Below, in pieces: positions 48,701 to 63,365 of a stretch of DNA of 64,000 nucleotides (position 1 is its first letter; the number at the start of each line of letters is the position of its first letter). The stretch is from Alteromonas naphthalenivorans (GTDB lineage Bacteria > Pseudomonadota > Gammaproteobacteria > Enterobacterales > Alteromonadaceae): assembly GCF_000213655.1 (NCBI RefSeq), contig NC_015554.1, positions 4,712,001 through 4,776,000 of the forward strand, written 5' to 3'. The notes beneath the pieces were generated by a model. The model was not told where the DNA came from. It saw nothing but the letters and a program-made list of their open reading frames with translations, and did no database searches. A program made the translations under genes and the position numbers.

Positions 48701-48884
48701 TATCAATTTGCTCAGGAGTGGCTCCTGGGTAAACTACAGAAATATTGAGTCGCGACGGAGAAGTTTGAGGAAAACTCTCCACGCGAATATTACTAATGGT
48801 CAAGTATCCGGAAACAAGAATAAAAGCCATTAATAAATTGGCTGCTACCGGATTATCAAGGAACCAGCGAGTTAACCACTTCAC
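45768..48884 (-). CDS. RND efflux transporter permease (HAE-type)
   Basis: 1038 residues from GTG 48884 with GAGGAGGT upstream, overlapping the adaptor stop by 4 bp (GTGA). AcrB-like fold: MKWLTRWFLDNPVAANLLMAF opening helix, two large periplasmic loops, helices 2-6 with GMILVLGVLVDDAVVVGESIH (proton-relay Asp pair), and helices 7-12 with VYVLLAIPLKSYFQP-like and GIVVNDSLVLMTRFN segments. It exports drugs or lipophilic compounds by proton motive force, together with the adaptor; no TolC-type gene is seen here, so the host's would be used. Confidence 0.93.
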   Translation of the reverse strand: MKWLTRWFLDNPVAANLLMAFILVSGYLTISNIRVESFPQTSPSRLNISVVYPGATPEQIDSSITQRIENAISGVAGIKSVMSASHAGYAEITVRKTSGTDLDKLIENVRNQVEAIVGFPDKAERPRIIPDEFGNLASFIVVHGDVDESTLQQATNQIQKALKKHPAISKITNLGKKKSKLSICPDPHKLQHFGLTPESLAEQISEWSLEYRSGELKTENGRITLRGDGFADSLTRLTQLPIITSAQGKLALRDIADVARIHQEDDSVVRFAGKEAVALMVETSSEDNLLKVSEATKHVLSEVQPLLPTSIEATVMADMAPYITEQLDLLSNNAIQGLVIVLVILGIFLELRLACWVALGIPVSLSGALWLMDLPQFNYSINDITLFGMILVLGVLVDDAVVVGESIHDARKKHSDPKQAAWHGVNVVSTATTFGVLTTIAAFSPMLWIENELAEILAGFSAVVIFALIFSLIESKLILPSHLSFVSQKKYVPNLFGRFFMALREVCQRGLQLFSQNLFEPSLKFALRHQATTLMLFGSVMLIAWGGLVKGTIPAVFFPEIPGRYGTATVIMDQDASPELTNRNAIQMESAIASTNYRLQNKFSFDQPVITKSLVAVDNGKKIEATIELSKAALQGIPSQSILEAWQLETGYVEGHYSIDFSLADEPAGGTAIAISANTREIAKQVAEQLKGHIESLPGVGNPFDDSQAGRRQLSVTLNERGQQLGLTQRDLAVLVGGAFGEIELHRLLDDGEEVSVIVALPEQARKSVSQLKSTRVALPNGGFASLGQVSDIKYSRTPEVLYRRNRDEVVTIQWRHNRDVSSPESVWQALETRVLPNLLLQYPGVKVTPVGEFAEITEVQSGFRKALVMTLFLIYVLLAIPLKSYFQPLIIMSVIPFGFAGAVLGHALMGVSVSILSLFGMMAMTGVVVNDSLVLMTRFNQLHRGGMPLTESLFESGKSRMKAIFLTTVTTVCGLLPLLMENSETAQYLKPAAISLVFGELFATPITLILIPVLLGLGKKLKLTKAAKGNIDNTLAS

Positions 48885-50023
48885 AACGTACCTCCTCGAC
48901 TATCTTCCGTCACGGGCTCTACCTGCTGACCGATCAACATTGTACTAATCGGGTAACGCACTATCTCACGAGTTGCTTCAGGCTGTTTAAAAAATTGGAA
49001 GCAAACGCGGTCATCAAACTGCTCTTGAATCCGAATTTGCGATTTTTCCAGACGACCATTTTCTACTATCCAAACATAACCATCAGGTGTCAGCGCAGTT
49101 GCTGGAGCGCACACAACATGGTCAATTTCCTGTCCGATCAGGGTTACGCTAACCATACTATTAGGAAGAAGAGACTTGTCTTTTCCGTAAGGCTCTTCAA
49201 TAAATAACACCAATTGTGACTGCCGAGTAAGTTCAGAGTTAGAAGGCATCTCGTAGCGTAAGCGCGCTTCCCACTTTTGCTTTAATTGGTCGATGACAAA
49301 AACAACGGTTTGATCATCCAAAGTGCCCAACTTCTTCTTTTGACTAGGTGACAACTCAATGTGCACATCAATACTGTCACTAGCGATTAATGTGAAAAGC
49401 CTATCGCCAGAATTAACCCACTGACCAAGAACAACCCGACGCTCAAACACTATTGCTTCAAATGGAGGATATAAATGGGTTTCGGTCAAGCGATGTTGAG
49501 CTTGTTCACGTGCATTAATTGCTGCTTGCAAATTGGCTCTTGCAGCTTCGATGTGGGGCTCAAAGCGTCCGAAATCCGAGACCTTGTTTCCCACAGAAAC
49601 TTGCTCAACGACGGTTTGTTCATGTTTCAAGCGCGCCAATTCCAGCTGCGCTTGTTTTACTTGGGCATCAGTGTTGGCTAAGTGAGCTTTATAATTTGTG
49701 TCGTCGATTTCTACCAATAAAGTGTCAAGTGCAACCGAATCTCCTGGCTTAGTTCCTTGACTCAAGGTAGTTACGCGCCCTTCTACTGCAGAAATTAGAT
49801 CAATCTGCCATCTAGCCTGAGTAACACCTACCACGGATTCTTTCACACGATAAACCATCGGTGTTACTTCCAGTGTACTAACCTTAAGAATCGGTTGCTG
49901 ACTTGCTAAATCATTGGGTTCCACCGCATCTTCGGTGAGCATCCAGAGTACTGTCATTATAAACAACGCCGATGCGCCAATCTGAACCAATCTACGATTT
50001 ATAAACACACTATTCTCCAACAC
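48881..50023 (-). CDS. RND efflux periplasmic adaptor (HlyD/AcrA family)
   Basis: 380 residues: an N-terminal membrane anchor (IGASALFIMTVLWML, about 16-31), a lipoyl half-motif (VEGRVTTLSQGTKPGDSVALDTLLVEID), an alpha-hairpin coiled coil (YKAHLANTDAQVKQAQLELARLKHEQ ... AREQAQHRLTETHLYPPFEA), and beta-barrel domains. It bridges the pump and an outer-membrane channel. First gene of the pump operon, divergent from tetR across a long palindrome. Confidence 0.92.
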   Translation of the reverse strand: MLENSVFINRRLVQIGASALFIMTVLWMLTEDAVEPNDLASQQPILKVSTLEVTPMVYRVKESVVGVTQARWQIDLISAVEGRVTTLSQGTKPGDSVALDTLLVEIDDTNYKAHLANTDAQVKQAQLELARLKHEQTVVEQVSVGNKVSDFGRFEPHIEAARANLQAAINAREQAQHRLTETHLYPPFEAIVFERRVVLGQWVNSGDRLFTLIASDSIDVHIELSPSQKKKLGTLDDQTVVFVIDQLKQKWEARLRYEMPSNSELTRQSQLVLFIEEPYGKDKSLLPNSMVSVTLIGQEIDHVVCAPATALTPDGYVWIVENGRLEKSQIRIQEQFDDRVCFQFFKQPEATREIVRYPISTMLIGQQVEPVTEDSRGGTL

Positions 50024-50042
50024 ATAAATGCTTTACATAATA

Positions 50043-50095
50043 TGAGACACACTTGTATCATAAATACATACACTTTATGATACAAGTGTGTCTCA
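50043..50095. promoter_or_regulatory. Perfect 22-bp-arm inverted repeat: TetR operator
   Basis: Arms 50043-50064 and 50074-50095 are perfectly complementary (start TGAGACACACTTGTATCATA) around a 9-bp spacer. It occupies the middle of the 105-bp space between the divergent adaptor and tetR genes. It is the expected site for the TetR-family regulator, overlapping both promoters; the long arms could hold two dimers. Confidence 0.85.
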
Positions 50096-50128
50096 CGCTT
50101 TTTTTATCTTCATTGCAGAGGAGACTCT

Positions 50129-50701
50129 ATGACTTCAACAATTGATGCTCGCTCAGAACGCTCAAGAATAGCCCTGATCCAAGCGGGTATGGTTTTACTT
50201 GCCGAAAACAAAAATACTAGTTTGTCAGATGTTGCGCAGGCTGCTGGAGTAGGACGAGCAACACTCTACCGACACTTTGACACTCGCGAACAGCTTATAG
50301 AAGCAGTTGCAAGACAATGTATTGGAGCTTTCAATTCAGTGACAGCTTCAATAGAGAAGACTGCTTCGTCTTATCTCGATGCCATTCGTTTGATGTTTGA
50401 AAAGGTAATGCCAATGCACCAAGAGCTTACATTTATTATGAAGCTTGATGCATTGGTTGAGGATAATTTCAGTCTTGAAGATCTTTATCGCCAACAAGAC
50501 GAAGAGTTACGCGAGATGCTTAAGCAATGTCAAAAGGAAAACAGTATTCGAAAAGATTTTTCCATTGATTGGTTAATGGCGTTGTTAGACGGCTTATTTA
50601 TTGCCTCTTGGCAAATGGTAGCAAAGCATAATATACCGCATGCCGATGCCGCCAAGTTGGCATTTGAAAGTTTTTGCGCCGGCGTAGCTGATAATGATTG
50701 A
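50129..50701 (+). CDS. TetR family transcriptional regulator
   Basis: 190 residues, GAGGAGAC before ATG. N-terminal HTH: RIALIQAGMVLLAENKNTSL, SDVAQAAGVGRATLYRHFDTREQLIEAV; the rest is helical ligand-binding and dimerisation domain. It probably represses the divergent RND operon and its own transcript through the palindrome at 50043-50095. It overlaps the next gene by 8 bp, so that membrane protein is co-regulated. Confidence 0.93.
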   Translation: MTSTIDARSERSRIALIQAGMVLLAENKNTSLSDVAQAAGVGRATLYRHFDTREQLIEAVARQCIGAFNSVTASIEKTASSYLDAIRLMFEKVMPMHQELTFIMKLDALVEDNFSLEDLYRQQDEELREMLKQCQKENSIRKDFSIDWLMALLDGLFIASWQMVAKHNIPHADAAKLAFESFCAGVADND

Positions 50702-51545
50702 GGAACTGTTTTCATTAAAGGCTATATTTAAGCGCTATCCATTTCGTATAACACTTACACTTCTTCTGGTGGTGTCTGAATCTCTATTAGATCTTTTATT
50801 TCCATTAGTTATCGGTTGGGCAGTCAATGATTTGGTTAACAGTGAATTTAAAGGTTTAGTCATGTTGGGGGTTTTAGGTATAACCAGTTTATTTATTGGC
50901 TCAGCTAGACGCTTCTACGATACACGTCTTTACAGTGGGATATACAGTGAAACAGCGTCGAGAGTGGTATCTAGTGGAAGGAAACAAGGCTTGTCTGTCT
51001 CTAAAATCAGTGCACGAAGCAGTTTGCTAACTGAGCTTGTAGAGTTCTTTGAACATTCCATTTCAGGTATTTTCCTTAGTTTAATTGGTGTAGTTGGTGC
51101 CTTGGCGGTTATTGCGACACTAAATTTTGAGATATTCTTTGCTTGCCTAGGTCTGCTGCTTTTGATGACGACAATGTACTTTTTAACCGGAGGTAAACAA
51201 TATCAGTATCATAGTCACTACAATCAAATACTCGAGCAACGAGTAGACTTCCTGAGTGGGAGAACAAATGCAGCGGTGCGCAGCCATTTTCTTAACCTGA
51301 TGCGTTGGAATGTAAAGTTGTCAGATATAGAAACACTGAATTTTGGGATTATTTGGTTAGGTACCATTGCACTGTTGATAGCAACACCGTTGTTAGCCAT
51401 AGATGGAGCTAAGAGTGTACCTAAAGTTGGAACTATTTTAGCCCTGTTCATTTATGTGTTAGATTACAGTGAGAAAGTCGTTACCTTACCATTTTTCATT
51501 CAACAACTAATTCGGCTCAAAGAAATTTCTAATCGCATGAATTAG
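50694..51545 (+). CDS. ABC-transporter-type six-helix membrane domain without ATPase
   Basis: 283 residues starting ATGATTGAGG inside the tetR end. It has six hydrophobic helices resembling the ABC exporter type I membrane domain: ITLTLLLVVSESLLDLLFPLVIGWAVNDLV, LGVLGITSLFIGSARRFYDT, EFFEHSISGIFLSLIGVVGA, FACLGLLLLMTTMYFLTG, FGIIWLGTIALLIATPLLAI and ILALFIYVLDYSEKVVTLPF. No Walker or LSGGQ motif follows; the gene ends after the coupling helix. It could work with a separate ATPase, or be an accessory to the RND pump. Confidence 0.75.
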   Translation: MIEELFSLKAIFKRYPFRITLTLLLVVSESLLDLLFPLVIGWAVNDLVNSEFKGLVMLGVLGITSLFIGSARRFYDTRLYSGIYSETASRVVSSGRKQGLSVSKISARSSLLTELVEFFEHSISGIFLSLIGVVGALAVIATLNFEIFFACLGLLLLMTTMYFLTGGKQYQYHSHYNQILEQRVDFLSGRTNAAVRSHFLNLMRWNVKLSDIETLNFGIIWLGTIALLIATPLLAIDGAKSVPKVGTILALFIYVLDYSEKVVTLPFFIQQLIRLKEISNRMN

Positions 51546-52699: not shown

Positions 52700-53983
52700 T
52701 TAGGTATTGACTAAAAAGTCTATTTTAACTAATCGCCCTCCAGATATTTCTTGATTGGTGTAATGCCAGTGCATCAAAGAACAAATTCGCTCTACCAAGA
52801 TTAAACCAAGGCCAAAACCATAGTCAGAGCTTGATTTATCATAGCTTGAATCGAAACTGTCTTCATTTTTTATCGTCACTTTACCGTTTGTAAGCTCAAC
52901 TAAGACATATCCAGCTTGGGTGTATTGCATTGCATTGCGAATAACATTGCTAATCGCCATCTGACACGGTGTTATTGGCAAAGTCACCACACATGGAGTT
53001 AGGGATAAATTAATATCAACATCTTTGCCTTCAACTAAATGATAATTATCGGTTATAATATCCGTAATTATTGAATCTAAAGCAATCGGTTGCTCTGGAA
53101 ATGGCTCACTATTTTCATAGCCGAGCCAGAGTACGGTTTCCGTAAGCTTTTTCATATCTTTAATGGCACGTTCTATTCGGTGTACTGTCTCTTGACAATC
53201 ATCGGAAATAATCAATTGAGATAAATAACGCTTTAATAGTTCTACATTCATACCCGCCACGGCAATCGGGGTTCGCAATTCGTGACTAGTGGTTTTCAAT
53301 AGAAATTGCTCTTTTGAGACAATATTTTCCATATTTATAAACGATTGCTGGAAGGGGATGGCAACCGTGTTTAATTCTTTAAAAGAAAAATCTGGAATCG
53401 CATCATGCATGTTACTCGCTGACAAATTACGAACCCAAAGCTCTAGCTTGCCTAAAGGCCGTAGAAAGTGTAGTACCATCCATGTTATAAAGAAAAAAGC
53501 GAATATTAATGAAAGCGATAACACAAAAAGCAGCGGACTTGCAGTATCGAGTATATAGGTTGTAATCTCATGAGAAATTTCGCTAAGTTGTTCCCAATCT
53601 TCATCATTTTCAAATACGACATAAATAGGACTGTTATCATGTAAATATTTGAGACCAATAATATAGCTTATACCTTGAAGTTCTATATTTTGATAACCTG
53701 GCTCTTCTACATTTTTTTTAAAATAGTTTGATAACTCATTAGGCAAGTCAGCTGGGTTTTTAGTAAATATTACCCCTTCATCACGTGGTAACTTTGCATT
53801 GTTGCTTTTCTGATAAGCGATATTGTATCGTTCAATCTCATCATCGAGCATCCAAACAATTGTTATTTCAGTGCCTTCACCCAACATTAAAATAGCAACA
53901 CTGTTGTAAACAATAAATAACACGATCAATATTGTCGACTGAATTGACAAAATGAATTTACGGATACTCTTCTGGAATTTCAT
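52700..53983 (-). CDS. Sensor histidine kinase of the Alm-like locus
   Basis: 427 residues: TM1 at about 11-33, a periplasmic sensor of about 115 residues rich in acidic residues (VWMLDDEIERY, VVFENDEDWEQ), TM2 about 150-173, a HAMP-like linker, the phosphoacceptor His234 in TTSHELRTPIAVAG, and ATPase motifs NVIRNAMQYT and DYGFGLGLILVERI. The acidic periplasmic domain recalls PhoQ/PmrB sensors of cations or cationic peptides, an analogy only. It overlaps the response regulator gene by 26 bp. Confidence 0.9.
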   Translation of the reverse strand: MKFQKSIRKFILSIQSTILIVLFIVYNSVAILMLGEGTEITIVWMLDDEIERYNIAYQKSNNAKLPRDEGVIFTKNPADLPNELSNYFKKNVEEPGYQNIELQGISYIIGLKYLHDNSPIYVVFENDEDWEQLSEISHEITTYILDTASPLLFVLSLSLIFAFFFITWMVLHFLRPLGKLELWVRNLSASNMHDAIPDFSFKELNTVAIPFQQSFINMENIVSKEQFLLKTTSHELRTPIAVAGMNVELLKRYLSQLIISDDCQETVHRIERAIKDMKKLTETVLWLGYENSEPFPEQPIALDSIITDIITDNYHLVEGKDVDINLSLTPCVVTLPITPCQMAISNVIRNAMQYTQAGYVLVELTNGKVTIKNEDSFDSSYDKSSSDYGFGLGLILVERICSLMHWHYTNQEISGGRLVKIDFLVNT

Positions 53984-54656
53984 TGGGCTCCCTTATCGCA
54001 AATCCATGCCCTCTAACTGTTTCGACCAATGAGATTTTACTATCACCGTCAACAATTTTTCTCAGTTTATGTATTTGTACTTTTAAATTATTACTGCCAG
54101 GGGGCTCATCCCCCCATACTGTTTGTACTAAATCGTTACGATCAACTACATTTGGACTTTTTCTCAGGAGGAATTCTAATATAGTCCAACAAACTGGCGT
54201 CAGTATCAGTTCATTGTTAGCTCGAGTTACTTTTTTTCGCTCTATATCCATACAAAGATCCGCAACTTGAAGTTTTAAACTCTGGCCACTTTTTCTTTTT
54301 GCCAAAGCTCTTAAACGAGCTAACAATTCATCTAGTGCAAACGGCTTAATCAAATAGTCATCTGTGCCTGCATCAAATCCTGCTAATTTATCAAATAAAG
54401 TACCACGTGCAGTCAACATTAATATTGGCGCATCAATTCCCTGACTTCTTAATTTCTGACAAACGGATAGGCCATCTAAACCAGGTAGATTAATATCTAA
54501 GATAAACACATCATATTTATTCTTGACGGCAAAATTAAAGCCTGCGTGCCCATTACCGACATAGTCGGTATCAAACCCTTCTAAGGTTAGAAATTGAATA
54601 ATGGTTTTGGCCAAATCAACATTATCTTCTATTAATAAGACTCTGGTATTCATCAA
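53958..54656 (-). CDS. OmpR/PhoP-family response regulator
   Basis: 232 residues. Receiver domain with Asp11, phosphorylation Asp54 (FILDINLPGLDG) and Lys104 (DDYLIKPF); C-terminal winged HTH (CWTILEFLLRKSPNVVDRND, VWGDEPPGSNNLKVQIHKLRKIV). It overlaps its kinase and lies 20 bp after the decarboxylase gene, so it is probably in the same transcript. Regulators of this class bind direct repeats with 11-bp period, and one is present before the carrier-protein gene (61772-61789). Confidence 0.92.
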   Translation of the reverse strand: MMNTRVLLIEDNVDLAKTIIQFLTLEGFDTDYVGNGHAGFNFAVKNKYDVFILDINLPGLDGLSVCQKLRSQGIDAPILMLTARGTLFDKLAGFDAGTDDYLIKPFALDELLARLRALAKRKSGQSLKLQVADLCMDIERKKVTRANNELILTPVCWTILEFLLRKSPNVVDRNDLVQTVWGDEPPGSNNLKVQIHKLRKIVDGDSKISLVETVRGHGFAIREPNEIPEEYP

Positions 54657-54676
54657 ATTCCTTCACTTAAGCATGA

Positions 54677-55900
54677 CTACAGCAATAACTCAGTTACTTG
54701 TTCACGACTTAGAAACGATTGGGGACTTGCAGTTGCTCCGTAAGCACCTGACATTAATATAGCGATGTGATCTCCAACATTTGCACTTGGTATATTGATA
54801 TTGGTGGCAATGATATCCAAAGGTGTACACAAGGGCCCAACAATATTCACCTCTTCTTTGAATTTACTATCAACCTTATTAGCTATCAACACTGGGTAAT
54901 TCTTCCTGATCACCTGTCCAAAGTTTCCTGAGTTTGCTAGATGATGATGCATGCCGCCATCACATACGAGGAACTTCTTCTCCCTTGAAACTTTCTTGTC
55001 GATCACTTTGGTCAAATAAAGGCCCGCTTGCGCAACTAAATATCTTCCTAATTCCAAGTGAAATTCCGTTTTTGTAAACGCTGGCGGTAACTTATCAATA
55101 TATATAGCTAAGTTTGAGCAAACCCTGGCAATATCTAACGGCTTTTCGTGTTGAAAATAAGTAACACCAAAACCACCGCCAATATTGATTTGTTTTGGTA
55201 TAACTTTCGCGGCATTTGATAACTCAACAGCTAGCGAAATGGTACGCTGATAGACATCACTCAATAGTTCAGCAGATAATATTTGAGAGCCACAAAAAAT
55301 ATGAAAGCCAACAAAATGGCAATATTCACGATTTATTGATTGGATAAGTTTAGGAACTTTTTCACTATCTACGCCAAATGGCTTGGCACCACCGGTCATT
55401 TTCATGCCTGCACCTCTAATATGAAATGCAGGGTTCACACGTAAAGCGATATTAGCCTTCTTGCCTATTTCTTTGGCATGGACAGATACTCGAGCCAGCT
55501 CAGATTCTGACTCTACATTGATTACAACACCAGCGGTTAGAGCAGCGACTAACTCTTTATCAGACTTGCCAGGTCCTGCAAGGCTCACTTTATTTGCTGG
55601 CATACCAGAAGATAATGCAATCATTAGCTCTTTATGCGAAGCAACATCCAATCCATTGACTTGGCTGGCAATATGAGAAACTAACGCAGACATTGGATTT
55701 GCTTTAACTGCGTAATGTAAGTGAACTCGGTTTGGTAAAAGTCTTTTTACCTGCTCAATCGTTCGGCTAATCATGTGGCGGTCGTAAATATAGCAAGGGC
55801 TGTCACCAGCAATGTTAATAATTTCTGAAGCGGTTTTGCCTGCAAAAACTAGCTGATTGTTGACAATTAGCTCTTGAAAGTCGGTTTGATTGATATTCAT
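54677..55900 (-). CDS. PLP-dependent decarboxylase (LysA fold, exosortase-A-associated type)
   Basis: 407 residues, fold type III like diaminopimelate/ornithine decarboxylase. Lys66 (LHYAVKANPM) binds PLP; further motifs are GFHIFCGSQIL, INIGGGFGVTYF (phosphate binding), CDGGMHHHLANSGNFGQ and VGPLCTPLDIIA (active-site Cys). The CDGGMHHHLA...GNFGQ segment is typical of the exosortase-A-associated decarboxylases (TIGR03099), whose substrate is not known. BtrK, a related enzyme, decarboxylates an aminoacyl group held on a carrier protein; given the ligase and carrier here, the same is plausible. Confidence 0.88.
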   Translation of the reverse strand: MNINQTDFQELIVNNQLVFAGKTASEIINIAGDSPCYIYDRHMISRTIEQVKRLLPNRVHLHYAVKANPMSALVSHIASQVNGLDVASHKELMIALSSGMPANKVSLAGPGKSDKELVAALTAGVVINVESESELARVSVHAKEIGKKANIALRVNPAFHIRGAGMKMTGGAKPFGVDSEKVPKLIQSINREYCHFVGFHIFCGSQILSAELLSDVYQRTISLAVELSNAAKVIPKQINIGGGFGVTYFQHEKPLDIARVCSNLAIYIDKLPPAFTKTEFHLELGRYLVAQAGLYLTKVIDKKVSREKKFLVCDGGMHHHLANSGNFGQVIRKNYPVLIANKVDSKFKEEVNIVGPLCTPLDIIATNINIPSANVGDHIAILMSGAYGATASPQSFLSREQVTELLL

Positions 55901-55910
55901 TGCGAATCAA

Positions 55911-57545
55911 CTACTCAAAAAAGTGATTATATTTAGATTTAATTTTCGCCCTATCGAACTTCCCATTGGGGTTTTTAGGTAGTTCTGGCCAAAAGTCGAT
56001 AAATTTAGGCCTCATAAAGTTAGGCAGTTCGGTAGTAATGTGTCGACCAATAGCACGCCTTGTCGCAAATAAGTCGTAATCTTCTGAAACCGCGACGACA
56101 GCGACAATAGCTTGTCCTAATTCAGGGTGATCTGCAGGAACAACTACGGCTTCTTCAACTTGGGAGCAAGCATAAAGTACATCTTCAACCTCAGTTGCAC
56201 TGACTCTGTAGCCAGAAGTTTTGATCAAATCATCATTGCGAGATACAAAGTAAAGGTATCCGTCAGCGTCCTTCTTAACAATATCTCCTGACCAAACAGC
56301 TAACTCTTGTCGGTTCAATTCGGATCTAGAAAATGGTGCTGCTTTGAAACGTTGCGCTGTTTTTGCGGGAGAATTCCAATATCCCTGTGCGACAAGTGGT
56401 CCACAATGTACTAGCTCACCCTCTTCCCCTGGTTCGCACTCCTCTCCGAGACTATTTATGACGTATATTCTCGCATTGGGAATGGCTTTTCCAAATGAGT
56501 TAGGTCGAGACGTCGCCTCTTCTGGAGGGAGATAACAAGATCGAAACGCTTCTGTTAGACCATACATTAAAAATGGTTTGCTTGTAGGAAGTTTATCTAG
56601 CAATTTATCTAACGTAGTTCTCGGCATTGCGCCTCCAGAATTACAAAAATACCTAAGCTGCTTAGTAACACTTTCAGGCCAGTTCATCACTGATAATTTA
56701 TTCCATAGGGTAGGAATTAACGACAAACCAGTAATTGAGTGCTGTTCTAGTGAGTTAATAATATCTTGCGGAAATAAGTATTCCATCAGAAAACAACTGC
56801 CACCTGCAAAAAATGATGTCGTCAACTGACTAAAGCCATAGTCAAAGCTTAGCGGCAAAACAGCAAGCACTCTGTCAGACGGGGTTATAGCCAAATACTG
56901 TGAAACACTTGCAGCTCCTACCACTAGATTTTGGTGTGATAAGACAACACCTTTTGGTGCCCCTGTACTGCCTGATGTATAAAAAATAGCAGCAATATCT
57001 GTTGAAATCACAGTTGGTAACGCAACAGAATCATTAGCTAAAGTTAGAAATTGCTCCCAAAAACATACCTTAGGTTTATAGGCAGAAGTTTCATCTCGAA
57101 CATAACATGGGCTTAGAATGGATTGCGCAAACACCGCGCTGCAGCTATCAATCAAGATAATATGCTCTACTGAGTTAGGTAGTGATTCTGACAGTGTTTG
57201 ATACCGCTGCTGGGTTGTAATTAACACCTTTGCCTGACAATCATCAACGATATGATTCACTTGTTTCGCTTTTAACACAGGGTTAATTGGAACAAACACT
57301 CCCCCCGAGACAGATGTTGCGAACATACACATCACCGCTTGGTTAGACTTTGGCAAATAAATTACTACTCGCTCTCCTTTGCTTATGTCGATAGAACTGA
57401 ACGACATTGCTAGGTTTTTGATATGATTTTGCAGCGCTTGATAGCTCAGCCAGCCAGAACTATCACCAAGAGCTCTATCATTGGGGCGAATATTCGCCTG
57501 AGCAAATAGCAAGCTATGTAATGACTGAAGTATTGCTTGTTGCAT
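55911..57545 (-). CDS. AMP-forming acyl/aminoacyl ligase
   Basis: 544 residues of the ANL superfamily. Core A3 motif IAAIFYTSGSTGAPKGVVLSH, A5 region LMYGLTEAF, A7 AVWSGDIVKKDADGYLYFVSRNDDLIKTSGYRVSATEVED, and A10 Lys in NPNGKFDRAKIKSK. It resembles the exosortase-A-associated ligase (TIGR03098) and, in role, AlmE, which activates an amino acid and loads a carrier protein. It lies 10 bp before the decarboxylase. Upstream, an ISAs1 element separates it from the ABC exporter gene, so its original promoter may be lost. Confidence 0.88.
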   Translation of the reverse strand: MQQAILQSLHSLLFAQANIRPNDRALGDSSGWLSYQALQNHIKNLAMSFSSIDISKGERVVIYLPKSNQAVMCMFATSVSGGVFVPINPVLKAKQVNHIVDDCQAKVLITTQQRYQTLSESLPNSVEHIILIDSCSAVFAQSILSPCYVRDETSAYKPKVCFWEQFLTLANDSVALPTVISTDIAAIFYTSGSTGAPKGVVLSHQNLVVGAASVSQYLAITPSDRVLAVLPLSFDYGFSQLTTSFFAGGSCFLMEYLFPQDIINSLEQHSITGLSLIPTLWNKLSVMNWPESVTKQLRYFCNSGGAMPRTTLDKLLDKLPTSKPFLMYGLTEAFRSCYLPPEEATSRPNSFGKAIPNARIYVINSLGEECEPGEEGELVHCGPLVAQGYWNSPAKTAQRFKAAPFSRSELNRQELAVWSGDIVKKDADGYLYFVSRNDDLIKTSGYRVSATEVEDVLYACSQVEEAVVVPADHPELGQAIVAVVAVSEDYDLFATRRAIGRHITTELPNFMRPKFIDFWPELPKNPNGKFDRAKIKSKYNHFFE

Positions 57546-57611
57546 CCGTTATATTTTCCTGTTGTGAAGTAGTAATAGTTGCATGGCGTTCAGACAGTGC
57601 TTCTTCCCCCC

Positions 57612-58863
57612 CAGGGCAACCGCATGAGTGCTCACTAATTAATCATGCCACTAAAACCCGCAGTTAGCACAGCTTCCAGATAGCTGGCTTTCATCCAAGC
57701 CCGTTTTTGCTTGGCGGGTATGCTGCCTTTTGATGACTCTGCCCGCAACATGTTTAGCGCTAAATGGCGTAGCATCGACCAGTTTTCGGCACCGTGATTC
57801 TGGTGTATCTGGCAGTCGTCTTCACCCATGCTGACATCCAGTACCCAATGCAAGCTGTTCTCTACAGCCCAGTGAGAACGTACTGCTTCGGCTAGTTGCT
57901 TCTCACTTAATGGTGCGGAGCTGATATGGTAGCGATATGTCAGTTCAGGTGCTTTGCCTTGTTGTTGGCGGAAGCTCATGCTCATGCCAAGCGTCTTTAA
58001 CTCAGGCCATTGCGGGAACGCTTTGCTCACGTCATCAGCACTTAACACATGGTATGTCCGGGCTTCTATGCGACCCCGCTTTTGCTCGAAGGTTAAGCCA
58101 CCAAGTGGTGCTTCCCGTGTCTCAGTAAACGCATCCTCGACTGCTTTACAGAGCTTGCCCTGATTGCTTTTGAGTGTGAACAGGTAATCACCACCTTGCT
58201 CGACTATTTGCTCTGCGATGCTGGTCTGGCAGCCCATAGCATCAATTGATACCAAGGTGTCCTGAACATCAAGTAACTGAATAAGCTCAGGGATCGCTGT
58301 AATTTCGTTCGACTTCTCTGAGGTTTTAACCTGACCTAAAACGACTTTATTGGTGCAGGCAAACGCGTTGACCATGTGTATCGTTGATTGGCGGTCACCG
58401 CGCTGGTAGGAGCTTCGCAGCGTTTTACCGTCAATCGCAATCAATTGTCCTTCGGTGCTTTCATGTACAGCCTGCATCCAGTTGATAAAGCAAACTCTAA
58501 ACTGCTCTGGGTCGATACGCGAAATGGTACGGGCAATAGTGTCATCAACGGGGACGCCATCGCGCAAGTAACCATGTTGTTGGAACCAGCCAATATGACC
58601 GTCGGCATAGTCCCGGATATCGCTCCACCCTTCGGCTCCAGCGACGACACCACACAAGGTGATAAACAAAATATCCTCAAGTGGATAGGTCACTTTTGCT
58701 GATTGACGCGTGTCAGATAATTCCCCAAAGTGGGTGGTGAAGGCTTCGATATACATGGTTTTACTCCCCAAAAAGAGAGTATAAGATCACGACTAAACCG
58801 GATCGTCAAACTGATCGTTTAGTTTCCGCCAACTGGTCAATAAATATTCACGATCTCACCCTG
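57612..58863. mobile_element. ISAs1-family element, copy 1
   Basis: 1252 bp, from CAGGGCAACC at 57612 to GATCTCACCCTG at 58863. It is flanked by a C-rich direct repeat, CTTCCCCCC, at 57603-57611 and 58864-58872. It lies in the operon between the ABC exporter and ligase genes. The transposase is on the minus strand; the element matches copy 2 in length and transposase sequence but is inverted. Confidence 0.93.
57635..58756 (-). CDS. ISAs1-family transposase, copy 1
   Basis: 373 residues from ATG 58756 (GGGGAG before it). H repeat-associated DDE transposase: N-terminal YPLEDILFITLCGVVAGAEGW, catalytic LIAIDGKTLRSS, VSIDAMGCQTSIAEQIVEQG, and C-terminal SHWAVENSLHWVLDVSMGEDDCQI with Glu. Identical at protein level to copy 2, indicating recent transposition and probable activity. 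Confidence 0.95.
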   Translation of the reverse strand: MYIEAFTTHFGELSDTRQSAKVTYPLEDILFITLCGVVAGAEGWSDIRDYADGHIGWFQQHGYLRDGVPVDDTIARTISRIDPEQFRVCFINWMQAVHESTEGQLIAIDGKTLRSSYQRGDRQSTIHMVNAFACTNKVVLGQVKTSEKSNEITAIPELIQLLDVQDTLVSIDAMGCQTSIAEQIVEQGGDYLFTLKSNQGKLCKAVEDAFTETREAPLGGLTFEQKRGRIEARTYHVLSADDVSKAFPQWPELKTLGMSMSFRQQQGKAPELTYRYHISSAPLSEKQLAEAVRSHWAVENSLHWVLDVSMGEDDCQIHQNHGAENWSMLRHLALNMLRAESSKGSIPAKQKRAWMKASYLEAVLTAGFSGMIN

Positions 58864-60632
58864 CTTCCCCCCCCCGAATTATGCTGCTGATATAACAATG
58901 AGTAATGACGAGATCTATTGATTAATTGCTCATGTGTTCCTGAATCAATTAGCTCTCCGTTAGACATCACGAAGATTTGGTCTACCTGACTAACTAAACC
59001 CAGGTTGTGTGTCACCATAATAATGGTTTTATCTTCAGCTAGCGTATTAAGTGTTTTAAAAATTCTTTGTTCACTTGCGGCATCCAAAGCAGAAGTAGGT
59101 TCATCGAAAATTAGAATCGGCGCTTTACTTAATATTGCTCTGGCAATTGCAACTCTTTGCTTTTGTCCCCCTGACAGCAAGCAGCCATTTTCACCAACAG
59201 GTGTATCAATATTGTTTGGCTGTTTTTGTATAAAATCCCAAAGAGAAGCCTGCTTCACTGCTCTAAAAAGATCATCTTTGTTGACTTGCTCTGTGCAGCC
59301 ATAACAAATATTTTCAGCGATTGTTCCGTCTATCAATTGGACGTTTTGTGAAACAAGTGCAAACATTTTTCGATAACTTTTTAGCGTAAAGTCATTTATG
59401 GGTTGACCATCAATCAGAATACTGGGGTTATTTTCTGTATGTAAACGCAATAGAAGTGAAACTAATGTTGATTTTCCACTGCCGGATTGACCAACAATTG
59501 CAACAAAAGTGTTTTTGCGAATGCTTAGAGATACATTCCGCAAGGTCGGAGTTTTGCTATTTACATAATTGAAACTTAAATGCTCAAATGAAATCCCCTG
59601 CTTAAGCGATTTGATAACCTTGGCACCTGAGTCCACTTCTGGGTTTTCATCAAGCAACTGAAATAAGCTCTCTGCAGCAGCAATGCCCCGCTGTAATAGT
59701 AAATTAACCTTAGATAGCTGTTTTAATGGGCGTAGTAAAGAGCCCATCGCGACAAGTATGGTAGTAAAAGTCCCAGGGGTTAGAGTATTTAGCACTCCGG
59801 GGATGCTAGATGACAGTAAAACAAAAACAATAGCAAGTGAGGCAATAAGCTGAATAACTGGATTACTGAATGCTTCTGCGCTTGCCAACTTCATCATTTG
59901 GCGTCTGTTACTATTGTTAATATTATCAAAACGCTCCGCTTCAATTCCTAAAGTCCCCAAACACAAAACTTGTTGATGATTGTTAATTGCCTGTTCACAA
60001 CGTATTGTCATTTCCCCCATAGCTGTCTGAACACTTTTACTGACTACTTTAAAGCGCCCGCTAACTTGATGAATGACCCAAGCGATAACAGGCCCAATAA
60101 TCAAAAAAATCAGAGATAGTTGCCAACTGGTATAAAACATTACAGCCAATAAGATGCATACAATTAAGGACTCTCTTATTAAAATAACTAATGTCTCAGA
60201 AGTCGCCTTGGCTAATTGCTCAGCGTCATAGGTGATCTTTGAAATAAGTTTGCCTTTTGGATGTTGACTAAAATAGCTCAAGGGTAGACTCATCAAATGA
60301 ACAAAGGCTTGATTGCGAATTTTATAAGTTACGCTATTGCTTACATACGCCATACTGTAATTTGCGAGAAAGCTTGCAGCCCCTCGTAAAAGAAATATTG
60401 CAAAAATTAATGCCGCACCAACTTGCAACACATTACTATCAGTTTTAGCTAAACCGTCATCAATCAGTGGCTTTATGAAATAAATCATACCCGCATCAAC
60501 AGCGCTAAAAACTAACAAACTAGAAGCTATAATGAGTAAATGTTGTTTGTGTGGTACTAAGTATGCCAATAAGCGGAGCAAACTCCCGTCGCTTGTTGAC
60601 GTTAATAGCTTCAACATTTTGCTTTTCGCCAT
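58848..60632 (-). CDS. MsbA-like ABC exporter (fused membrane and ATPase domains)
   Basis: 594 residues: six helices (about 20-310) followed by an ATPase with Walker A GQSGSGKST, signature LSGGQKQRVAIARA, Walker B ILIFDEPTSALD and the His switch in MVTHNLG. MsbA-like proteins flip lipids or export lipophilic products. The final residues (SGGGSRVRS) come from a C9/G9 tract and the ISAs1 end, so the original C-terminus was changed by the insertion. It overlaps the acyltransferase gene by 22 bp. Confidence 0.9.
   Translation of the reverse strand: MAKSKMLKLLTSTSDGSLLRLLAYLVPHKQHLLIIASSLLVFSAVDAGMIYFIKPLIDDGLAKTDSNVLQVGAALIFAIFLLRGAASFLANYSMAYVSNSVTYKIRNQAFVHLMSLPLSYFSQHPKGKLISKITYDAEQLAKATSETLVILIRESLIVCILLAVMFYTSWQLSLIFLIIGPVIAWVIHQVSGRFKVVSKSVQTAMGEMTIRCEQAINNHQQVLCLGTLGIEAERFDNINNSNRRQMMKLASAEAFSNPVIQLIASLAIVFVLLSSSIPGVLNTLTPGTFTTILVAMGSLLRPLKQLSKVNLLLQRGIAAAESLFQLLDENPEVDSGAKVIKSLKQGISFEHLSFNYVNSKTPTLRNVSLSIRKNTFVAIVGQSGSGKSTLVSLLLRLHTENNPSILIDGQPINDFTLKSYRKMFALVSQNVQLIDGTIAENICYGCTEQVNKDDLFRAVKQASLWDFIQKQPNNIDTPVGENGCLLSGGQKQRVAIARAILSKAPILIFDEPTSALDAASEQRIFKTLNTLAEDKTIIMVTHNLGLVSQVDQIFVMSNGELIDSGTHEQLINRSRHYSLLYQQHNSGGGSRVRS
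58867..58875 (-). repeat. Nine-base C/G homopolymer at the 3' end of the ABC exporter gene
   Basis: The plus strand reads CTTCCCCCCCCCGAATT. It encodes the Gly run near the exporter C-terminus and overlaps the ISAs1 target duplication. Slippage here would alter the last codons. Confidence 0.8.
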
Positions 60633-61465
60633 CGATTATATGACCAGTACCATTGGTCTGGATGTTCAGTAATAATATCTTCAAATCGATGATAGACTTT
60701 CTGCATGATATTCTGTAAAGCTATTGGGGATTTTTCGACTGGTTGCATTGAAATAGTTTCAATACAAACACGGTACCTATTTGACCTTTCTGCAACAGCA
60801 TACGCCAATAGAACGGGAGTTCGACCAATAGCCGATAACATAGCGACACCTGTCGGCGCACCTGTCATTTGATTAAAAAACTCGACCTGAGTATCGTTTG
60901 AAAAATGGTCACTATGCAAGCTCACAACTTTATTACTACGAATAGCACCAAGTAACTGAATAAAACTCTTACCATTCTTTTTGTTAAAATAGCGTATGCC
61001 ATGCTTTGTATAGACTTCGTCTGCACATAGTAAAAACTCTGGTATATTGGATAGAGTGGTAGAGCGATCAGTAAGATTTTGAAGCGCAAAAGGCACCATT
61101 TCATAGCAATTCATATGCATCGTTGCGACGCTAAGGGGCTCACCTGATAACAACAACATCTTTGCGTCATCATCAATATCAAAGTGGGTTTCAATTTCAT
61201 CTAACCAAAACGACTCAAAAACACCATACACTATATTTTGATATGAACTAACTGCTAACGCTCTAGCCTCTTTATTACTAAGGTTAGAAAATGCGCGCTT
61301 TATATTTGCTATAGCTCTTGTACGAGTTTTAGAAGAAGTAGCTAAAATTAATGTCGCCAGCTTTTCCGTCAGCCACCGCCGCTGGTGGAGCTCTAACTTC
61401 TTAATGCCTTTGATGATAAGAGTGATAAGACTATTGATAGCCCTGTGCTTGAAACTAGGTTTCAT
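60611..61465 (-). CDS. LpxL/AlmG-like acyltransferase (lysophospholipid acyltransferase superfamily)
   Basis: 284 residues with an N-terminal amphipathic region, the catalytic HX4E motif (His117-MNCY-Glu122), GVAMLSAIGRTPVLLAYAV, and the family end DQWYWSYNRWRK. LpxL enzymes move acyl chains from ACP to lipid A; AlmG, in the same superfamily, moves glycine from a carrier protein to lipid A. Here it sits directly after its own carrier gene (TAATG overlap) and before the exporter, so it probably takes the group carried by that protein. Confidence 0.86.
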   Translation of the reverse strand: MKPSFKHRAINSLITLIIKGIKKLELHQRRWLTEKLATLILATSSKTRTRAIANIKRAFSNLSNKEARALAVSSYQNIVYGVFESFWLDEIETHFDIDDDAKMLLLSGEPLSVATMHMNCYEMVPFALQNLTDRSTTLSNIPEFLLCADEVYTKHGIRYFNKKNGKSFIQLLGAIRSNKVVSLHSDHFSNDTQVEFFNQMTGAPTGVAMLSAIGRTPVLLAYAVAERSNRYRVCIETISMQPVEKSPIALQNIMQKVYHRFEDIITEHPDQWYWSYNRWRKAKC

Positions 61466-61713
61466 TAAGCTGCAGCTCTACTCTGGATAATTAAGTTCTC
61501 TAATTGACCTAATGAAGAAAAACTATCTGCTGATAACTCAGCGTTATCGATATCAAATGAAAATATTCTTTCAAACTCTATGAGCAACAACATAACAGCC
61601 ATAGAATCAAACTCGGGAATTGCGCCAAATAATGGCGTATTAGCTTTGAATTGGCTTGTTTCAATTTCTAGAACATTTGATAAAATTTGCTTTAACTCTT
61701 CCCTTACCGACAT
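61465..61713 (-). CDS. Acyl/aminoacyl carrier protein
   Basis: 82 residues: MSVREELKQILSNVLEIETS, TPLFGAIPEFDSMAVMLLLIEFERIF. Ser37 in the DSM motif takes the phosphopantetheine arm, so it is a dedicated carrier protein, not the acidic housekeeping AcpP. GGGAT precedes ATG. First gene of the operon, under the direct-repeat promoter at 61756-61789; coupled by TAATG overlap to the acyltransferase. AlmF is the closest analogue in role. Confidence 0.88.
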   Translation of the reverse strand: MSVREELKQILSNVLEIETSQFKANTPLFGAIPEFDSMAVMLLLIEFERIFSFDIDNAELSADSFSSLGQLENLIIQSRAAA

Positions 61714-61755
61714 ATCTATCCCAACTAAATTGCAAGTACCTTAATAATTGGACGC

Positions 61756-61789
61756 ATTGTATACAAGATAAGGTTAATAAACGGTTAAT
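61756..61789 (-). promoter_or_regulatory. PmrA/PhoP-like direct-repeat box and -10 before the carrier-protein gene
   Basis: Minus strand ATTAACC repeats at 61789-61783 and 61778-61772, exactly 11 bp apart, the spacing of OmpR-family regulator sites (PmrA HTTAAK-N5-HTTAAK; PhoP KGTTTA-N5). Ten bases further lies TACAAT (61761-61756) as -10, so the box replaces the -35 as in class II activation. The likely regulator is the adjacent response regulator. Confidence 0.65.
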
Positions 61790-62113
61790 CAGATTGAAGT
61801 GACATAAGAAAATTAAGAATAAGCTGAAAGGCTAAGCTCACATTCAGTGAGTACGGCCATTGTTAACTCTTCTGAGTACGCACCTTTAGTACATCGCCGG
61901 AGCAAATAAGGAGCGTGTGCTTGCGGTTAGCTGAGCATAAATACATCAATAAAATAGCGAGCAATAAGCTTCTTGCTATTTCATTACTCAGTAGTCATAC
62001 GATGATAAACTCACTATTTTAATAGATGGATGACGTCGATTTTTTTAAGATTTATAGTAGTTCTATGTTTACGCCGTTGGCCAAGAACTACTCTATTCGG
62101 TTAAGTTTACGCC
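61790..62113. other. Gene-free region upstream of the carrier operon
   Basis: No supported ORF, repeat or RNA between the direct-repeat box and the ISAs1 copy 2 target site. A+T-rich sequence with short palindromes only. Confidence 0.55.
62104..62113 (+). repeat. Target-site duplication of ISAs1 copy 2
   Basis: AGTTTACGCC at 62104-62113 is repeated at 63366-63375, immediately outside the element ends. A perfect 10-bp duplication, showing simple transposition rather than recombination at this site. Confidence 0.95.
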
Positions 62114-63365
62114 CAGGGTGAGATCGTGAATATTTATTGACCAGTTGGCGGAAACTAAACGATCAGTTTGACGATCCGGTTTAGTCGTGATCTTATACTC
62201 TCTTTTTGGGGAGTAAAACCATGTATATCGAAGCCTTCACCACCCACTTTGGGGAATTATCTGACACGCGTCAATCAGCAAAAGTGACCTATCCACTTGA
62301 GGATATTTTGTTTATCACCTTGTGTGGTGTCGTCGCTGGAGCCGAAGGGTGGAGCGATATCCGGGACTATGCCGACGGTCATATTGGCTGGTTCCAACAA
62401 CATGGTTACTTGCGCGATGGCGTCCCCGTTGATGACACTATTGCCCGTACCATTTCGCGTATCGACCCAGAGCAGTTTAGAGTTTGCTTTATCAACTGGA
62501 TGCAGGCTGTACATGAAAGCACCGAAGGACAATTGATTGCGATTGACGGTAAAACGCTGCGAAGCTCCTACCAGCGCGGTGACCGCCAATCAACGATACA
62601 CATGGTCAACGCGTTTGCCTGCACCAATAAAGTCGTTTTAGGTCAGGTTAAAACCTCAGAGAAGTCGAACGAAATTACAGCGATCCCTGAGCTTATTCAG
62701 TTACTTGATGTTCAGGACACCTTGGTATCAATTGATGCTATGGGCTGCCAGACCAGCATCGCAGAGCAAATAGTCGAGCAAGGTGGTGATTACCTGTTCA
62801 CACTCAAAAGCAATCAGGGCAAGCTCTGTAAAGCAGTCGAGGATGCGTTTACTGAGACACGGGAAGCACCACTTGGTGGCTTAACCTTCGAGCAAAAGCG
62901 GGGTCGCATAGAAGCCCGGACATACCATGTGTTAAGTGCTGATGACGTGAGCAAAGCGTTCCCGCAATGGCCTGAGTTAAAGACGCTTGGCATGAGCATG
63001 AGCTTCCGCCAACAACAAGGCAAAGCACCTGAACTGACATATCGCTACCATATCAGCTCCGCACCATTAAGTGAGAAGCAACTAGCCGAAGCAGTACGTT
63101 CTCACTGGGCTGTAGAGAACAGCTTGCATTGGGTACTGGATGTCAGCATGGGTGAAGACGACTGCCAGATACACCAGAATCACGGTGCCGAAAACTGGTC
63201 GATGCTACGCCATTTAGCGCTAAACATGTTGCGGGCAGAGTCATCAAAAGGCAGCATACCCGCCAAGCAAAAACGGGCTTGGATGAAAGCCAGCTATCTG
63301 GAAGCTGTGCTAACTGCGGGTTTTAGTGGCATGATTAATTAGTGAGCACTCATGCGGTTGCCCTG
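62114..63365. mobile_element. ISAs1-family element, copy 2
   Basis: 1252 bp from CAGGGTGAGATCG to GTTGCCCTG with a 10-bp target duplication. In opposite orientation to copy 1; together they bracket the ABC exporter, acyltransferase and carrier genes as a possible composite unit. Confidence 0.95.
62221..63342 (+). CDS. ISAs1-family transposase, copy 2
   Basis: 373 residues from ATG 62221; same sequence as copy 1 throughout, on the other strand. H repeat-associated DDE transposase, intact. Confidence 0.95.
   Translation: MYIEAFTTHFGELSDTRQSAKVTYPLEDILFITLCGVVAGAEGWSDIRDYADGHIGWFQQHGYLRDGVPVDDTIARTISRIDPEQFRVCFINWMQAVHESTEGQLIAIDGKTLRSSYQRGDRQSTIHMVNAFACTNKVVLGQVKTSEKSNEITAIPELIQLLDVQDTLVSIDAMGCQTSIAEQIVEQGGDYLFTLKSNQGKLCKAVEDAFTETREAPLGGLTFEQKRGRIEARTYHVLSADDVSKAFPQWPELKTLGMSMSFRQQQGKAPELTYRYHISSAPLSEKQLAEAVRSHWAVENSLHWVLDVSMGEDDCQIHQNHGAENWSMLRHLALNMLRAESSKGSIPAKQKRAWMKASYLEAVLTAGFSGMIN

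Follow-up and report, generated by a model that had tools for sequence, protein, structure and literature searches.

A putative operon for carrier-based aminoacylation of an envelope lipid, predicted to use aspartate decarboxylated on the carrier, in Alteromonas naphthalenivorans

The stretch of Alteromonas naphthalenivorans DNA considered here (64,000 nucleotides of contig NC_015554.1, positions 4,712,001 to 4,776,000; hereafter the window) contains on its minus strand, from position 61713 down to 52700, genes for a carrier protein (ACP), an LpxL-superfamily transferase (AT), a paralogue of the exporter MsbA (MsbA2), an AMP-forming ligase, a decarboxylase, a response regulator and a sensor kinase (Table 1). 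With moderate confidence we regard this set as an inducible envelope-lipid aminoacylation operon, which converts aspartate to beta-alanyl-S-ACP, transfers the group to a lipid by means of AT and flips the product by means of MsbA2. By the tests made, the locus is neither an exosortase locus nor an Alm, LpxL or MsbA representative; it would be a new form of carrier-based envelope aminoacylation. According to the proposed scheme the ligase, judging by its pocket, would adenylate the beta-carboxylate of L-aspartate and load the carrier, whereupon the decarboxylase, in line with its kinship to BtrK and with the FlvN-FlvL-FlvO and VinN-VinL-VinO precedents, would strip the free alpha-carboxylate on the carrier, leaving beta-alanyl-S-ACP. 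As acceptor for AT we envisage a hydroxyl or an amino function on lipid A, or on some comparable lipid of the inner membrane; once the beta-alanyl group has been attached there, MsbA2 would flip the aminoacylated product. In the window's genome and in one further genome (G311), the predicted target of the two-component system at the operon end is an operator, ATTAAC-N5-ATTAAC, upstream of the carrier gene, and the likely benefit would be a positive group lowering the net negative charge of the envelope. Gene order, family membership, pocket residues, separate AT and MsbA2 clades and the matching position of the repeat in two genomes can be read directly from the data. The original prediction had described these parts on one strand with a single ISAs1 insertion sequence inside the operon, which profile scans and the reading frames bore out, adding a second identical ISAs1 copy upstream. 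Adjacent genes either share 1, 22 or 26 bp or are spaced by 10 or 20 bp, the only exception being the ISAs1 element between exporter and ligase, and all reading frames are open with lengths matching those of their relatives.

The choice of substrate is suggested above all by the ligase. In a comparison of the 146-residue stretch surrounding its pocket with the PDB, VinN came first (E 2e-12) and the beta-amino-acid enzyme CmiS6 second (7e-7), while nothing else reached 1e-6. VinN residues D230, F231, S299 and R331, whose roles in the pocket have been described (PMC11253843), align with D235, Y236, S303 and R335 of the ligase, the stretch from S303 to R335 being ungapped. The arginine is found in 171 of 171 aligned ligases and the aspartate in 169; for the ligases of the class survey described below the corresponding values are 41/41 and 40/41, as 41 of its 44 loci gave a row for the alignment and three were lost to overlapping frames. 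Position 236 is occupied by Tyr in 162 of the 171 and by Ala in eight, and position 303 by Ser or Thr in 170. CmiS6, the substrate of which lacks such a carboxylate, has Ala in place of the arginine. The beta13-beta14 loop is shorter than in the second LgrA adenylation (A) domain and in the A domains of Colwellia AT loci, which agrees with the hallmark of VinN/FlvN-type enzymes, namely a loop one residue shorter than that of alpha-amino acid A domains. One feature weighs against aspartate loading of the VinN kind: loop residue K330 of VinN is not kept, its counterpart being F334, a Phe in 170/171 ligases. Because K330 is unmatched, the enzyme appears to work like the VinN/FlvN-type beta-amino acid A domains rather than to be a member of this group. 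Structural searches were not decisive, as Foldseek with the ligase model left VinN outside the top 50 and VIA-align placed it near-tied at the top. The pocket most likely points to aspartate loaded as a beta-amino acid, in which case the transferred group would be beta-alanyl.

For the decarboxylase, the best solved relatives are the BtrK structures 2j66/7ru7 (230 bits, E 4e-67), followed at a distance by the best diaminopimelate decarboxylase (148 bits, E 4e-42). It accompanies the VinN-type ligase in all five AT loci that have this ligase type, and is found in none of the 12 AT loci where the A domain is of alpha type. In fluvirucin biosynthesis FlvN loads L-Asp on FlvL and the pyridoxal phosphate (PLP) enzyme FlvO removes the alpha-carboxylate, giving beta-alanyl-FlvL (PMC10951976); Asp is also given as the FlvN substrate in another paper, which states for vicenistatin that thioester formation is needed before decarboxylation (PMC11284099). 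As a substrate, 3-methylaspartate was made less likely by the glutamate mutase E subunit profile (PF06368), which gave no hit in 5/5 genomes having the full gene set (sensitivity unproven, the controls having yielded a single weak hit); aspartate is preferred on this ground. Since BtrK kinship, both biosynthetic precedents and the lack of a glutamate mutase match point in one direction, conversion of aspartate to a beta-alanyl-carrier appears to be the most economical reading, and the sequence comparisons lend good support to these on-carrier reactions. The initial proposal of an amino acid probably bound to the carrier and decarboxylated there is thereby sharpened to aspartate, held as a beta-amino acid by a VinN-like pocket.

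The transferase and the exporter of the operon resemble those of the lipid A pathway. The best NCBIfam relatives of the ACP are specialised carriers (AmcB of cispentacin), all under cut-off, and BLAST revealed carriers 39-57% identical to it in nine other AT loci. Against the LpxL/LpxM equivalog models AT reaches at best 66.9 bits with a cut-off of 273, and its AlphaFold2 model (predicted local distance difference test score, pLDDT, 94) has LpxM 5kn7 as the best PDB match (E 7e-14). The dyad H117-X4-E122 is kept in 25/25 rows of the alignment (A2), the Glu being absent from a 26th (L047). On the tree, 35 AT rows form one clade (Shimodaira-Hasegawa-like approximate likelihood ratio test, SH-aLRT, 98) apart from seven LpxL rows, so that the clustering with ordinary LpxL, named in the original prediction as an observation that would speak against it, did not appear; deep branches are long, their order is unsure and the program warned of long branches. 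This tree and those for MsbA and the ligase are quick trees without bootstrap. As to the exporter, 20 AT-linked rows constitute one clade (SH-aLRT 99) sister to nine canonical MsbA rows, and 12 other exporters from the same genomes fall outside both; rows of less than 43% identity or odd length were excluded, and a long branch was flagged at the window's own place. The AT-linked paralogues of six other genomes pass the TIGR02203 cut-off, the window's MsbA2 lying just under it. A canonical MsbA is encoded elsewhere in the window's genome (G000:C1:1679074), and each of the seven AT-bearing genomes checked retains canonical MsbA and LpxL. Such an exporter, an MsbA paralogue dedicated to this pathway, is more in keeping with a modified lipid being flipped than with a soluble product being released, and since a sister clade of MsbA travels with AT, the acceptor may be a lipid A-like molecule of the inner leaflet. 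Of the two fates foreseen initially for the acyl group, transfer to an envelope lipid has become the likely one and release through the exporter is disfavoured. The acceptor, like the regulation and the benefit, is inferred. In Vibrio cholerae glycine is accepted by a hydroxyl on an acyl chain (PMC4790380). One AT locus only (L045:12159-13037) contains a PF04116 fatty acid hydroxylase gene, between MsbA2 and the carrier gene; its product could be a source of the hydroxyl to esterify.

The AT family is rare, being present in four of the 394 genomes of the order including the window's own. A protein search yielded 29 AT relatives (the window's own among them), 22 loci were found in genome contigs, and viral contigs searched for AT relatives yielded 0. 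The AT-locus survey comprises 24 loci, made up of L048-L069, L045 and the window itself; L046 and L047 duplicate L050 and L068 and do not enter the count. In 20 of the 24, no more than 4 kb separates the MsbA2 gene from AT, and a TIGR03098-type ligase together with the decarboxylase is present in five, all from different genomes: the window, L045 (genome G311, same family, other genus), L049 (Algicola sagamiensis), L051 (Pseudoalteromonas denitrificans) and L069 (an uncultured Colwellia). The last three have the order ACP-AT-MsbA2-ligase-decarboxylase, uninterrupted and without insertion, and in L045 the order is ACP-AT-ligase-decarboxylase-regulator-kinase with MsbA2 upstream of the carrier. 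Since the set recurs without insertion in other genera, a chance neighbourhood of these genes was rejected. The gene-neighbourhood survey proposed in the original prediction hence showed the set conserved elsewhere, and in the neighbourhoods read the ligase and decarboxylase were not tied to any single other known pathway. Four further metagenome pairs of AT and TIGR03098-type ligase come from contigs of equal size (71832, 22416, 8790, 5988), which suggests physical linkage and is not proof of it. Twelve of the 24 loci, all from Colwellia, encode, ahead of AT and MsbA2, an A domain of another kind and a short, divergent protein resembling a carrier (PF00550 E 0.0005-0.04 in the three of 12 scanned), and no decarboxylase. 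All 12 A domains possess the conserved Asp of amino-acid-activating enzymes and a longer loop and lack the Arg, being thus of alpha type; for the one scanned, amino acid adenylation and DltA models gave the top scores. One such ligase used as query against the 394 genomes at E 1e-90 gave 0 matches, an uninformative result. In the remaining seven loci neither ligase type adjoins AT, two of these having a FadD-like ligase about 4 kb off. Within the window's genus the decarboxylase exceeds its cut-off in one of 36 genomes, so that the locus is likely to have been acquired by the window's genome.

Two ISAs1 copies of 1252 bp each, identical and inverted with respect to each other, stand around a part of the operon. 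They could be mistaken for the ends of a composite transposon carrying ACP-AT-MsbA2, but this was rejected: each copy has its own, different target duplication (9 bp and 10 bp) and therefore represents a separate insertion. No match to the ISAs1 copy was found in the plasmid sequences searched. The MsbA2 stop codon falls within the end of copy A, so the last few MsbA2 residues are altered; the transposase of this copy is oriented as the operon is. These details bear on the question of whether the module is a remnant, with ISAs1 cutting the ligase, decarboxylase and regulator genes off their promoter and the pathway being off in this strain. Although the position of the insertion between the two halves and the stop codon inside it fit such a reading, the frames are open at the lengths of relatives and the transposase follows the operon orientation, and we consider a remnant highly improbable. 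A related idea, which we deem decidedly unlikely, takes AT for an ordinary fatty-acyl late lipid A acyltransferase, the carrier and MsbA2 for spare copies, and the ligase and decarboxylase for unrelated neighbours (e.g., serving an exosortase) brought together by accident or via the insertion sequence. It may appeal to the PF03279 fold and HX4E dyad shared with LpxM, to the division of the two halves by ISAs1 and to the exosortase encoded in this genome. Set against it are the same gene order without insertion in L049, L051 and L069, the Algicola and P. denitrificans drafts without an exosortase hit, the differing target duplications, by which ACP-AT-MsbA2 was not delivered as a composite transposon, the separate AT clade, and the 12 Colwellia AT loci, whose A domains bear the amino-acid-activating Asp.

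An operon for a soluble or lipid-like small molecule (an N-acyl amine, lipoamino acid or signal) exported by the ABC protein seems unlikely as well, even if a carrier, an A domain and a BtrK-like decarboxylase are typical of natural-product pathways and the pair sits with a GNAT/FeeM-like acyltransferase in an exosortase-type locus (L043). The exporter is nearest to MsbA, its clade being sister to canonical MsbA and not to the 12 other host exporters; no condensation, ketosynthase or thioesterase gene was seen among the locus genes scanned, and the transferase belongs to a lipid A family. A butirosin-like variant, in which glutamate is loaded via the gamma-carboxylate and a decarboxylation of the BtrK kind yields 4-aminobutyryl-carrier, is very unlikely: the closest solved relative of the decarboxylase is indeed an L-glutamyl-[BtrI acyl-carrier protein] decarboxylase, but the ligase has a pocket like that of VinN, the substrates of VinN and FlvN are methylaspartate and aspartate, and glutamate would be one carbon longer in a pocket of this type.

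Resemblance of the ligase and decarboxylase to the pair associated with exosortase A had been noticed from the outset and was substantiated, both proteins passing the curated TIGR03098 and TIGR03099 cut-offs; NCBIfam grades the two models as hypothetical equivalogs only. Among 369 genomes sampled from the class, the ligase is over the cut-off in 44, the window's genome being one of them. The class survey drawn from this sample includes 44 neighbourhoods (43 over the cut-off and one below, the window's own excluded, with several contigs ending close by), where the decarboxylase was found beside the ligase in 33, a carrier in 15 and AT in none. In L043 the pair is accompanied by a carrier, hydr2, hydr1, PrsT and the GNAT/FeeM-like acyltransferase of an exosortase A system, and in L042:7122-13695 it lies between VanZ-like and PlsB-like genes in a draft (G041) scored as 100% complete and having no exosortase over the cut-off. 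An exosortase profile built from eight sequences detected none beside the 44 class-survey ligase loci, though exosortase A may be missed by it or be encoded further away. As predicted, there is none in the window: TIGR02602 found nothing at the locus and a sole hit in the genome, at position 827073; on a circular contig this would be some 1 Mb from the locus. Across the five full-set genomes, two have an exosortase over the cut-off, one falls just under (104.1 vs 105.55) and two have none; the latter result holds for the Algicola and P. denitrificans genomes, drafts whose completeness is not stated. On the ligase tree (17 of 120 listed proteins used) the AT-locus ligases, five seen and four assigned from contig size, lie within one 18-row clade (97) inside TIGR03098 and form no clade of their own; the AT-locus label changes eight times, no fewer than in shuffles (195/500 as low), and the neighbourhoods of the other nine rows of the clade were not seen. 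The pair thus seems to be a movable unit that provides one transferase or another with an aminoacyl group bound to a carrier. We would tentatively go further and suggest, as a possibility somewhat short of an even chance, that a transferase related to LpxL, with its own MsbA as flippase, attaches beta-alanine to lipid A or to a lipid reserved for this purpose, a modification not described so far, that the exosortase A-associated pair makes the same beta-alanyl-carrier, and that beta-alanylation of lipids or of lipid-like anchors is a general chemistry of bacteria, delivered via several unrelated transferases (LpxL-like, GNAT and perhaps PlsB-like).

The original prediction had also assigned a two-component system to the operon. 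It belongs to the locus in two genomes, the window's and that of L045, where the regulator is 57% and the kinase 34% identical; this is only two of the five ligase-decarboxylase-AT loci, and in the other genomes looked at the subfamily stands beside pumps of the resistance-nodulation-division (RND) type. Relatives of the regulator at E <= 1e-65 exist in 43/394 genomes of the order, and an RND pump gene adjoins them in 10 loci looked at (three confirmed by BLAST to the window's pump, seven by eye), so the pair was probably recruited to the locus. None of the 22 other AT loci has a close regulator relative near AT, L065 having one of 32% identity. The proposed operator, which we presume to be similar to a PmrA box, has its equivalent in L045, where ATTAAC-CAGTT-ATTAAC precedes the ACP by 43 bp and another copy is found farther upstream. 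A repeat before the carrier is limited to the two AT loci with this regulator and was seen in 0/22 other AT loci when 700 bp before AT were searched. Exact sites number three in the 4.97 Mb genome and five in G311, with one and five, respectively, for the reversed-pattern control, and a relaxed form of it does not occur more often in the window than in shuffled sequence. Since the pattern is not enriched genome-wide, the argument for an operator is one of position: by our own arithmetic, the probability that an exact site falls by chance no further than 300 bp from the carrier start is roughly 2e-4 and 3e-4 for the two genomes. The other two exact sites of the genome and the sites of three other genomes outlined no regulon, a single 19-bp match between two genomes having unrelated genes alongside. 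The predicted periplasmic domain of the kinase (residues 31-148, limits set by eye) is acidic, with 22 D/E vs 8 K/R, compared with 19 vs 13 in the L045 kinase. Cationic peptides are the cue to which V. cholerae CarSR responds in controlling almEFG (PMC9178039), and by analogy the kinase may sense such peptides.

AlmG is reportedly a distant relative of late acyltransferases; an AlmG model is not among the 11 NCBIfam matches of the locus. The Alm-like arrangement noted originally, i.e., ligase, carrier and LpxL-superfamily transferase in one locus, is real, and the operon further shares with AlmEFG of V. cholerae, which places glycine on lipid A under CarSR, two-component control and a likely envelope-lipid acceptor (PMC4790380, PMC9178039). 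Unlike Alm, for which the descriptions consulted mention none of these, it has a VinN-type ligase in place of one for an alpha-amino acid (glycine), a decarboxylase, which would yield beta-alanyl and not glycyl, and a dedicated MsbA paralogue. Loading of Asp or methyl-Asp on a stand-alone carrier and decarboxylation there, as proposed here, are known from fluvirucin (FlvN-FlvL-FlvO) and vicenistatin (VinN-VinL-VinO) (PMC10951976, PMC11284099). The ligase shares with VinN D230, S299, R331 and an aromatic residue at 231, K330 being Phe here; in these systems the group enters a polyketide synthase via a second ligase and a dipeptidyl transferase, whereas the operon has a lipid A-type transferase and a flippase. 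Butirosin BtrI-BtrJ-BtrK employs, as here, a LysA-fold PLP decarboxylase on a carrier-bound amino acid, in that case glutamate. BtrJ is not known to be an AMP-forming A domain. With the exosortase A-associated enzymes the operon pair has the pocket residues in common, and it differs from L043 by having no exosortase at the locus and, instead of a GNAT acyltransferase and hydrolases, a PF03279 transferase and MsbA2 as partners. AT shares fold and dyad with LpxM, and MsbA2 is sister to MsbA, both in separate clades. The operon would thus join carrier-borne lipid A aminoacylation with on-carrier aspartate decarboxylation and add its own flippase. No description of such a system was found in the literature searched, which covers few subscription journals, and a search on beta-alanine and lipid A modification returned no such modification by title or start of abstract. 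If true, this would be a type of envelope decoration new to us, and it would offer a role for an enzyme pair that is widespread yet functionally unassigned: as exosortase A-associated ligases have the same pocket, their role becomes testable, and the operon gives a concrete and cheap test of what ligase and decarboxylase do there.

Table 1. Features of the predicted operon and its surroundings; positions refer to the window.
Feature	Position	Strand	Remarks
Carrier protein (acyl or peptidyl carrier protein, ACP/PCP)	61465..61713	-	82 aa, FDSM motif, Ser37 = phosphopantetheine site; PF00550 27.4 bits, cut-off 20.8
LpxL-superfamily transferase (AT), predicted beta-alanyl transferase	60611..61465	-	284 aa; PF03279 66.7 bits, cut-off 22.3; H117-X4-E122
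MsbA paralogue (MsbA2), predicted lipid flippase	58848..60632	-	594 aa ABC exporter; TIGR02203 594.6 bits vs cut-off 602
ISAs1-family insertion, copy A	57612..58863	-	9-bp target duplication
AMP-forming ligase, predicted aspartate(beta-carboxylate)--carrier ligase	55911..57545	-	TIGR03098 671 bits, cut-off 592; VinN-like pocket D235, Y236, S303, R335
PLP-dependent decarboxylase, BtrK-like; predicted aspartyl-carrier alpha-decarboxylase giving beta-alanyl-carrier	54677..55900	-	TIGR03099 540 bits, cut-off 478
OmpR-family response regulator	53958..54656	-	Profile scans
Sensor histidine kinase	52700..53983	-	PF00512 above cut-off; PF02518 21.5 bits, below its cut-off 26.4
ATTAAC-CGTTT-ATTAAC direct repeat, 11-bp period, predicted operator	61773..61789	-	59 bp before ACP start
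ISAs1 copy B, identical to copy A, upstream of operon, outside the system	62114..63365	+	Own 10-bp duplication

Several minor observations concern the surroundings of AT loci. The carrier-like proteins of two Colwellia loci (L055:9715-9945 and L052:9730-9960) have 76 aa, fall under the PF00550 cut-off and carry their Ser in KSF, not DSM. In a genome of Alteromonadaceae (L048:12582-13832) a YeiB/DUF418-like membrane protein gene follows ACP-AT-MsbA2 with no ligase adjoining. Within the window a stand-alone PF13748 ABC transmembrane protein of 283 aa (50694-51545), for which scans showed no ATPase domain, adjoins a TetR-type gene, and genes for an RND pump and its adaptor occupy 45768-50701 of the minus strand with the TetR-type gene close by. 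In P. denitrificans (L051) an RND pump pair comes directly after the decarboxylase, the pump being 35% identical to that of the window.

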